A stretch of DNA of 64,000 nucleotides from Utricularia gibba. Lineage: Eukaryota; Streptophyta; Magnoliopsida; Lamiales; Lentibulariaceae. Under the pieces are notes generated by a model. The model was not told where the DNA came from. It ran no database searches and saw only the letters and a list, made by a program, of their open reading frames with translations. The first letter of the stretch is position 1; each line of letters opens with the position of its first letter. The position numbers and the translations under genes were made by a program. Of this stretch, positions 5,392-60,240 are shown piece after piece. Location: positions 310,001 through 374,000 of the forward strand of contig NEEC01000025.1 in assembly GCA_002189035.1 (NCBI GenBank), in the 5' to 3' direction.

Positions 5392-6247
5392 TCAGACAAT
5401 GGCGTTAGCAGCACTAGCGATTCTGGGCCAGAGGTCAGCGCATTCCTTTCCAATAGGGCCGGTGATGGCAGAGCCTGAAAGACCAGACAAAAACATCATG
5501 GCCATGGATAAACCATTGGCGGCCAGAGTGTACGGATGAGATGAGAATTCTAACCTTTCATTTCGCCTTTGGGGTTCACAATCACACCCGCATTATCTGC
5601 AGATTCAAAAGGGTATGGCCTTTAGTGGTTAAATGAGGATTAGGGTGACAGGGGGCACTGGTGAACTATGATTACACCAAGAAATAGCATCACTAAAGCA
5701 ATGAATCAGTTTAGGGCAAGGCACGAGATCACCGAGATCCTTATTCTTGCTGTCAAATAAAAGCTTGCTAGGAAGGCAGCATGTTAACACAGTTCTATAG
5801 AGCGGGCATAATCACGCAGCAGAGAAAACGATGAAGTGCAAGAATTTCAGCAATAAAAGTGGAGTCTTGCCTTCGAAATACATGAAAACGCCATCCTTTC
5901 GGCGAAATGGCTTGCGTTGTCGGACGATGACAGCTGGCATCACCTTCTTGCGGAGATCGGGCTTACCTTTCTTGACGGTGGCCATTACCATATCGCCGAC
6001 GCAGGCGGACGGAAGCCTGTTGAGCCTTCCCTTGATCCCCTTCACTGATATGATGTACAGATTCTTAGCACCGGTGTTATCGGCGCAGTTCACGGTTGCC
6101 GCCACTGGCAGACCCAGCGACATGCGGAACTTGTTTCCGGCCGTGCCTCCGCGACCTGCCGTCAAACCGAGAAAACATAATCACCGTTATTGACGAAAAT
6201 CAAGTAGAAAGAGCAGCAGGAAATGCTAATCCACCTCGCTTCGACAT
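5392..6247 (-). CDS. RPL23: Cytosolic large-subunit ribosomal protein uL14 (L23)
   Basis: Four exons: 6247-6235, 6155-5871, 5596-5555, 5474-5392. They join to 140 residues, exactly the eukaryotic uL14 length. Conserved blocks are [48 protein letters not shown], and the tail [15 protein letters not shown]. The protein sits on the interface side of the 60S subunit near the sarcin-ricin loop. Exon 1 codes only MSKR plus one base, the usual split for plant ribosomal protein genes. Intron 2 begins GC, not GT (exon end GAAG, intron start GCAAGA); the protein continuity FMYFE-DNAGVIV leaves no alternative GT donor. One substitution, KPFRRKDG where most plants have KPWRRKDG, is unremarkable. The promoter is shared head-to-head with the next gene. 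Confidence 0.97.
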
Positions 6248-6291
6248 TTTTCAACTTCCTCTGAATCGGAATGCATACACGAAAGTTCTTC

Positions 6292-6362
6292 TAGGGTTTA
6301 TACGCCGCCGCGGAGCTAGGGTTTCCGTGTCCGTGTCACTGCTTGGCCCAGAAAGCGGCCCA
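6292..6362. promoter_or_regulatory. Telo-box and site II cluster in a 169-bp divergent promoter
   Basis: Between the uL14 start (6247, minus) and the reductase start (6417, plus) there are two telo-box cores (TAGGGTTT at 6292-6299 and 6317-6324) and two GGCCCA elements (6345-6350, 6357-6362). This pairing is known from plant ribosomal-protein and other growth-linked promoters, where TCP factors bind site II. Its position suits uL14; whether it also drives the reductase is inference. Confidence 0.7.
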
Positions 6363-58024: not shown

Positions 58025-58492
58025 CCTCTGAAATTGTAATTAGATATGCTACTAATCTGCTCTTCATTTTGGGATCTCTGGGAGTAGAACTGTGAGATTC
58101 AGAAGAAAACTGCTGCTGCATCTCTCTGTGATTGAAGATTCTGTTGTAGGATAAGGAAGCCTTCTGTTGTTGTAACAGTACCGCAGTTGTTCCTAGGAAG
58201 ACAATAGTTTTAGGTGTTAGTTCGATTCATGCTCCTTGTATCCATGAATAATCCATGATTTGGTTGTGTTTGACAGATGTACACTGCTACGGCAATTAAG
58301 AGAAAACAAACACTTTGCACCATAAGAAAATGACTTTTATTCTCTTTATTTGGCTGAATTTGCATGATTTTAGCCTTTAAATTCGGCATGCAGGTTTCAT
58401 GTACGAGCATCATCTCCTCCCTTCCTCTCCCTGAAAATGAATTTGTTGGTGCTTCATCTGTTAGGCAGAAATGGACATCTTCCCTGTTGAAT
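58025..58492. other. Spacer between the ASHH3-like and TBL genes
   Basis: It holds the 3' UTR of the methyltransferase and the TBL leader. No separate gene is supported. Confidence 0.5.
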
Positions 58493-60240
58493 ATGAGCAG
58501 CAAAGATGGGGGCACCATGCACCTCAGAAGGGCTCTCTTCTCCCCGACTCAACGGTCTAAGCTCTCTTTCATCTTCAATTATGCCTTCCCCTTATTCATC
58601 TTCTGCAGCTTGTTTTTCTTCCTTTTCTTTATCATGAGCAGCAATCCCCTGCCTGGCTCAAGAGTGTCCTTGAAAGAAAAGGGCAGTTCCTTTCCTATTT
58701 TCCACATTATTTCTTTGATCCGAATGCCAGCAGATCCGATCACGCAAAAACACAGGACTCCTATAATTCTGCATCAGCACCTTTTGATGGTTTGAGAAAT
58801 GAGACGCTGCAAGGGTCTGGTAGCGCTCCTGGTCTCGAAGCTTCCTCTCGAAATGGCACGGGGATGGAGAAGCCTACTTCTAGGCCGGGAAGAGGCAGGA
58901 AGAAGCGAGGTAACAAGAGGAAGAAGAGGACAAAACCAAAGAAAAGTTGGTTGGAGCTCATGGGCAAGTGTGACCTTTTTGATGGTAAATGGGTACCAGA
59001 TGCTACACCCTCTCTGTACGATACCGGGTCATGCCCTCACATTGATGAATCCTTTTCTTGCAAAAAGAATGGAAGACCCGATGATGACTATACAAAGTTC
59101 AGGTGGCAGCCGAACCATTGCACTGTCCCAAAGTGAGTAAATCCTCAACTCTTGTGAAGCTTATATCAGAGGTTTTAATCAGACAGTTTTATGGCAGATT
59201 GGACATGGGGAAAATGCTGAAGCTTCTCAAGGGGAAGAGGATAGTTTACATTGGCGATTCTTTGAACAGGAACATGTGGGACTCCATGGTCTGCATGCTG
59301 ATAAACTCAGTCAAGAACAAGAGCAGAGTCTTCGAGGCCTCCGGCCAGACCAAGTTCAAGACGGAGACAGCACTGTCCTTCATATTTCAGGCATCTATCC
59401 CTCTGATCATGATGATACTTCTCTTCCTGTGACCTTAAAGCTTTGCTGTACAGGACTATGATTTCTCGGTGGAGTACATACGGTCCTCTTTCCTTGTACA
59501 AGAATGGGAAACAACTCAAGAGAACGGCACCCAGAAGGAAACACTCAGGCTTGACATTGTTGACAAACGGTATGCCGGACTTGGAGATGCTGATGTGCTG
59601 GTTTTCAACACAGGAAACTGGTGGACACATGAGAAAACATCCGAAGGGTAATCCCCTTTCTTCAATTTTCTGGCAATGTTTCATTCCCCAGATCGTGTTG
59701 CCTTGATCATTCAGGAAAGACTACTACCAAGAAGGTGATCATGTCTACGAACAGCTTGATGTAGTTGAAGCATTTGACAAAGCTATGGCTACTTGGGCCA
59801 AATGGATGGAAATGCATGTTAACCCCATGAAGACTGATGTCTTCTTCAGAGGTTACTCCTTCGCTCATTTCAGCAAAGGAGAGTGGAACACAGGCGGAAG
59901 GTGCGACAGCAAAGAGCCCATCGTGGATGAGAACGAGCTGATCCGACGAAGCGAGCTGAGTCCGCCGGTGCCTCAGATGATAGACGGCTTGATGAGGCGT
60001 CTCCGGATGCCGGTTTTCTATCAGAACGTCACCAGAATGACCAACTACAGATGTGATGCGCACCCTTCCTCCTTCAGGAAGCCCAACATGACAGAGGACG
60101 AGAGACGCTTCTTCGAAACGCATCAGGACTGCAGCCATTGGTGCCTTCCTGGCGTGCCGGATACCTGGAACGAGCTCCTCTTCGCAGAGCTCTTGCTGAG
60201 CCGGAAACGAAAGCTGTTGATGCAGCAGCACCGCACCTGA
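58493..60240 (+). CDS. Trichome birefringence-like (TBL) polysaccharide O-acetyltransferase
   Basis: Proposed exons: 58493-58663, 58756-59132, 59198-59390, 59454-59647, 59715-60240 (486 residues). The N-terminal signal anchor (FIFNYAFPLFIFCSLFFFLF) marks a Golgi type II protein. A basic stem (RPGRGRKKRGNKRKKR) follows. The TBL domain starts CDLFDGKWVPD; the GDS motif is IGDSLNRNMWDSM and the DxxH motif DCSHWCLPGVPDTWNE, the catalytic Ser, Asp and His. Relatives O-acetylate xylan, mannan or pectin. The anchor and the TBL domain are in different frames: either a 92-bp intron (58664-58755) joins them, as modelled, or there is a one-base indel. Intron 3 would begin GCATCT. The start is the first ATG that keeps a short cytosolic tail; ATG 58364-frame alternatives extend it. 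Confidence 0.85.

Follow-up and report, generated by a model that had tools for sequence, protein, structure and literature searches.

Does a single window of the Utricularia gibba genome hold six introns whose 5' splice site begins with GC instead of GT and, if it does, is six too many? The window is the whole stretch of 64,000 nucleotides that was analysed here (C480:310001-374000), taken from a genome of 100 Mb on 516 contigs. A first-pass annotation had drawn about 135 introns in it by hand and had found that six need a GC donor, several times the expected number. Reading the window letters directly, we found a GC dinucleotide at each of the six donor positions (5870, 13706, 18731, 28871, 53818 and 59391). 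The same reading bears out the claim that GC follows an exon ending in AG, which is the case in all six introns. The donors carry A or G at +3 in six of six and G at +5 in five, the exception being a gene of the TBL family with C at +5. All six introns end in an AG acceptor, and the homologous acceptors are conserved for the ribosomal protein uL14, the ALE2-like receptor kinase, myosin XI and TBL. U12-type donors resemble (A/G)TATCCTT, and by reading, none of the six sites shows any resemblance to this motif.

For each intron, both flanking frames were fixed and every stop-free in-frame GT-AG and GC-AG solution was listed. Each solution was scored in bits by the sum over its splice sites, and the GC solution was compared with the best GT one; a GC prior of about 1% subtracts some 6.6 bits from the GC score. 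In this enumeration of GT-AG and GC-AG solutions the proposed GC donor is the top in-frame solution for all six introns. We also wrote an ab initio gene finder for this analysis, which gives 151-171 introns in the window, false ones included, so that the earlier total of about 135 is plausible but inexact. The gene finder called a GC donor 5 times in the window and 6 times outside it; decoy dinucleotides of similar site number were called 2-7 times each, about as often, and its GC calls alone are therefore no evidence. One of these calls, at 10940 in a G3BP-like gene, is false, as the true last exon lies in another frame (NAGRGRGGRGRTSGRGI, then a stop) and ends earlier. Both this false call and the frequency of decoy calls favor the possibility that some of the six are reconstruction errors, the real donor being a nearby GT, or belong to pseudogenes. 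We consider this unlikely for the reasons given gene by gene below.

The uL14 (RPL23) intron lies on the reverse strand (5597..5870, phase 1, 274 nt) and reads AAG^GCAAGA ... CTGCAG^A, where the caret marks the splice junction. Its GC solution scores 11.6 bits vs -0.8 bits for the best GT. The homeolog on contig C375 also has GC (AAG^GCAAGT) at the identical codon, and the uL14 paralogs on C3 and C2 have GT donors (AAG^GTTAGG, AAG^GTTAGT) at the homologous intron. In alignment with the plant uL14 of solved ribosomes, the spliced product runs through the junction with no gap.

The myosin XI intron (18731..18803, forward strand, 73 nt) is in phase 2 after the residues AAYR and reads CAG^GCAAGC ... 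AAAAG^G. The splice-site score is 9.2 bits for GC vs 1.7 bits for the best GT, a lead that comes down to about 1 bit from splice sites alone once the prior of about 1% is applied. The predicted GC donor is instead settled through homology. A phase-2 intron after AAYR is found in seven myosin XI paralogs, six of which have a GT donor and one of which (C413:996k, CAG^GCAAAT) has GC. In the tree both GC myosins fall on one branch with moderate support (89/90), so a single shared change is likely. The spliced myosin XI aligns to the solved myosin motors 7dhw and 7kch with no gap across the junction; the earlier argument that conserved flanking protein fixes the uL14 and myosin junctions thus holds for both, each being gap-free against solved structures.

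In the ALE2-like receptor kinase the intron (13706..13962, forward strand, 257 nt, CAG^GCGAGT ... GACAG^G) scores 9.2 bits with GC vs -7.7 bits with the best GT, and the Pfam domain ALE2_N (PF23180) is matched downstream of it. The collinear homeolog on C375 has GT (CAG^GTAATT) at the identical base. More broadly, the left part of the window (5053-41408) has a homeologous but fractionated counterpart at C375:1355001-1395000, which retains the uL14, ALE2-like, FTRA-like, LONGIFOLIA-like and pectate lyase genes and in which no myosin was matched. We place the end of the intron at 13962 because the acceptor CAG^GCTGTAGTCAAA is conserved in this homeolog; an acceptor at 13832, which was the first choice of the gene finder, was dropped for the same reason.

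The TBL gene (PMR5N / PC-Esterase), whose product matches Pfam PF13839 and PF14416, has a phase-0 intron of 63 nt (59391..59453, forward strand) that reads CAG^GCATCT ... TGTACAG^G, with a score of 6.7 bits for GC vs -4.3 bits for the best GT. Four TBL paralogs (C414, C3, C409 and C2:2918k) have the phase-0 intron with a GT donor, and GC (GAG^GCATGA) is found in the TBL gene at C2:4882k and in its near-identical copies on C112 and C127. In the tree the two GC genes do not group as sisters, which calls for either two changes or a single change followed by a reversal. The near-identical TBL gene occupies C2:4881959-4885171 and is present on two contigs of about 35 kb each, a near identity which suggests that C112 and C127 are alternative haplotype copies.

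Because paralogs carry the intron at the same codon and in the same phase, the predicted junctions of uL14, ALE2, myosin and TBL are fixed to the base, and this argues against reconstruction error in these four genes. The remaining two introns lie in genes that the first-pass annotation had left unnamed. The first, in its "unknown membrane protein", spans 53818..53915 on the forward strand (phase 0, 98 nt) and reads AAG^GCATGT ... TTTTTTCAG^G. We identified the gene as a member of the DUF3685 family (Pfam PF12452, E 1.2e-6), with the match in exons downstream of the GC intron; a paralog search of the genome found none. No GT-AG solution scores anywhere near it, and GC (14.6 bits) is ahead of the best GT (-5.4 bits) by 20 bits, which again speaks against a misplaced donor.

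The same DUF3685 gene has a second odd intron at 54315-54437, where joining KLRNE^VAVHQW needs either a TT donor (GAG^TTATGA) or a lost G (GAG^GTTATG). This odd donor may reflect decay of the gene or a base missing from the assembly. That donor 54315 fits only as TT, or after the loss of a base, counts on the side of reconstruction error or a pseudogene.

The sixth intron is the weakest of the six and its GC donor is only probable. It lies in the gene at 28771, the "unknown gene" of the earlier reading (28871..28956, forward strand, phase 1, 86 nt, GAG^GCAGGT ... TTTTGCAG^A), and this gene has no match in Pfam or NCBIfam. The GC solution scores 11.9 bits vs 1.1 bits for the best GT, a margin that shrinks to about 4 bits with the prior of about 1%. 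The frame is also preserved by a GT at 28875, just 4 nt further downstream, when this is joined to an acceptor at 28990 or 28999. The sole relative of the gene, on C375 opposite window positions 28700-29180, carries minor indels as well as one large deletion and resembles a pseudogene in decay. The absence of a family match and the degraded appearance of the only relative are why we regard 28871 as probable only, and both its frame-keeping GT and its degraded-looking homeolog add to the case for an error at this site. Overall, the claim of six GC donors stands with one qualification: the other five (uL14, ALE2-like, myosin XI, DUF3685 and TBL) are firm as predicted introns.

At homologous donors of uL14, ALE2, myosin and TBL within this one genome, GT is found in some paralogs and GC in others while the position of the intron is fixed. 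The same pattern has been described across plants, where the positions homologous to 1,073 Arabidopsis GC-AG introns hold GC in 9,830 and GT in 13,045 sequences (PMC7072748). One possible explanation for the GC donors is selection: as weak sites they would allow alternative splicing to be regulated, or introns to be retained. In human, nematode and Arabidopsis, alternatively spliced genes are enriched in GC donors (PMC2490688), and here GC is common to both members of the uL14 pair and of the myosin pair. However, most paralogs have GT at these donors, which means that GC is not required by the family, and the sequence analysis gave no sign of alternative splicing. We consider selection of this kind an improbable cause.

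Whether six is too many depends on the baseline. The value of around 1% assumed for plants in the first-pass annotation is right, the published mean share of GC-AG introns being 1.2% (PMC6310983). At this rate the nominal probability of six among 135 introns is P = 0.006, and that of five, P = 0.024, with no correction for the way in which the finding was selected; with 150 introns the values are 0.010 and 0.035. As the reader had singled out what looked odd, the excess is weak evidence. About 9 windows with at least six GC-AG introns are expected by chance at 1.2% among the roughly 1,560 windows of this size that make up the genome.

An outside sample was obtained by spliced alignment of the window proteins to their paralogs, with all non-GT donors treated alike. 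Opposite the GT donors of the window, the paralog introns have 91 GT donors, no GC donor and four other dinucleotides, which we take for alignment errors. This set of 91 consists mostly of myosin paralogs and is therefore not a random genome count. A count of zero in 115 puts the upper 95% bound at 2.6% and would have a probability of 0.006 if the true rate were 4.4%.

These counts bear on the possibility that the GC-AG fraction of the species is truly raised, to some 3-4%, through relaxed 5' splice-site recognition or a biased change of GT to GC, with the window as a sample of it. The nominal P of 0.006 for six in about 135 fits such a raised fraction, as do three more GC donors in paralogs of uL14, myosin and TBL, but these three were found by looking there. 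The absence of GC among the 91 clear paralog introns, mostly of myosin, and the zero in 115 stand against it. So does the splicing machinery, as far as it was surveyed: all eight U1 snRNA genes found, in a search that could miss weak copies, have the normal 5' end ACTTACCTG. A variant U1 snRNA that pairs with C at +2 was rejected, since with canonical 5' ends in all eight copies found no variant U1 would explain the GC sites. Four of the eight U1 genes (C244:3055386, C413:4803192, C304:1565518 and C451:6499946) start with TCACTTACCTG and the other four with ATACTTACCTG; the donor-pairing core is unchanged in both start types. We regard a truly raised fraction in this species as having little probability. 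A genome-wide excess of GC-AG introns is not supported, and a modest one is possible. The earlier claim of a meaningful excess is weak: its nominal P value leaves room for a real excess, in this region or in the species, but it concerns a small number in one window, and it is set against the windows expected by chance and the absence of GC among the 91 outside introns. Six in one window is a mild clustering within reach of chance.

Very probably, then, these are ordinary U2-type GC-AG introns, and their number in the window reflects a rate typical of plants, 1-2%, together with chance or mild clustering. From the sequence the six introns are predicted to be spliced as drawn. A single T-to-C transition at donor +2 would turn a GT donor into a GC donor, and the remaining donor bases (an exon ending in AG, then in most cases A at +3 and G at +5) would pair strongly with normal U1 snRNA. 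Such pairing would keep the GC introns spliced, so that the changes could persist, pass to duplicates and at times revert. This would agree with the more consensus-like context reported for GC donor sites, where the other donor bases compensate for C at +2 (PMC2490688). The context is strong in five of the six; the C at +5 of TBL speaks against this account, as do the GT close to 28871 and the second odd donor of the DUF3685 gene.

The six resemble the U2-type GC-AG introns described in plants (PMC6310983, PMC7072748) in their AG-ending exons, their AG acceptors, the presence of GC or GT in relatives and, in most of them, consensus-like positions +3 to +6; only the local count differs, six in about 135 compared with the 1.2% mean. 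They also recall the conversion of GT donors to GC reported from mammals (PMC2490688) in that donors are swapped at a kept position, here between the two ALE2 homeologs and within the uL14, myosin and TBL sets of paralogs. Unlike in mammals, the comparison here is among duplicates of one plant genome, and we infer rather than establish the direction of each GT/GC change, as we do its near-neutrality. The intron class is already well known, and exchange between GT and GC has already been published for plants.

For annotation of this genome, gene models restricted to GT donors would leave six genes shortened or distorted, including those of uL14 and myosin XI. Those duplicates in which one copy has GC exactly where the other has GT form a small natural set for comparing the splicing strength of the two donors.
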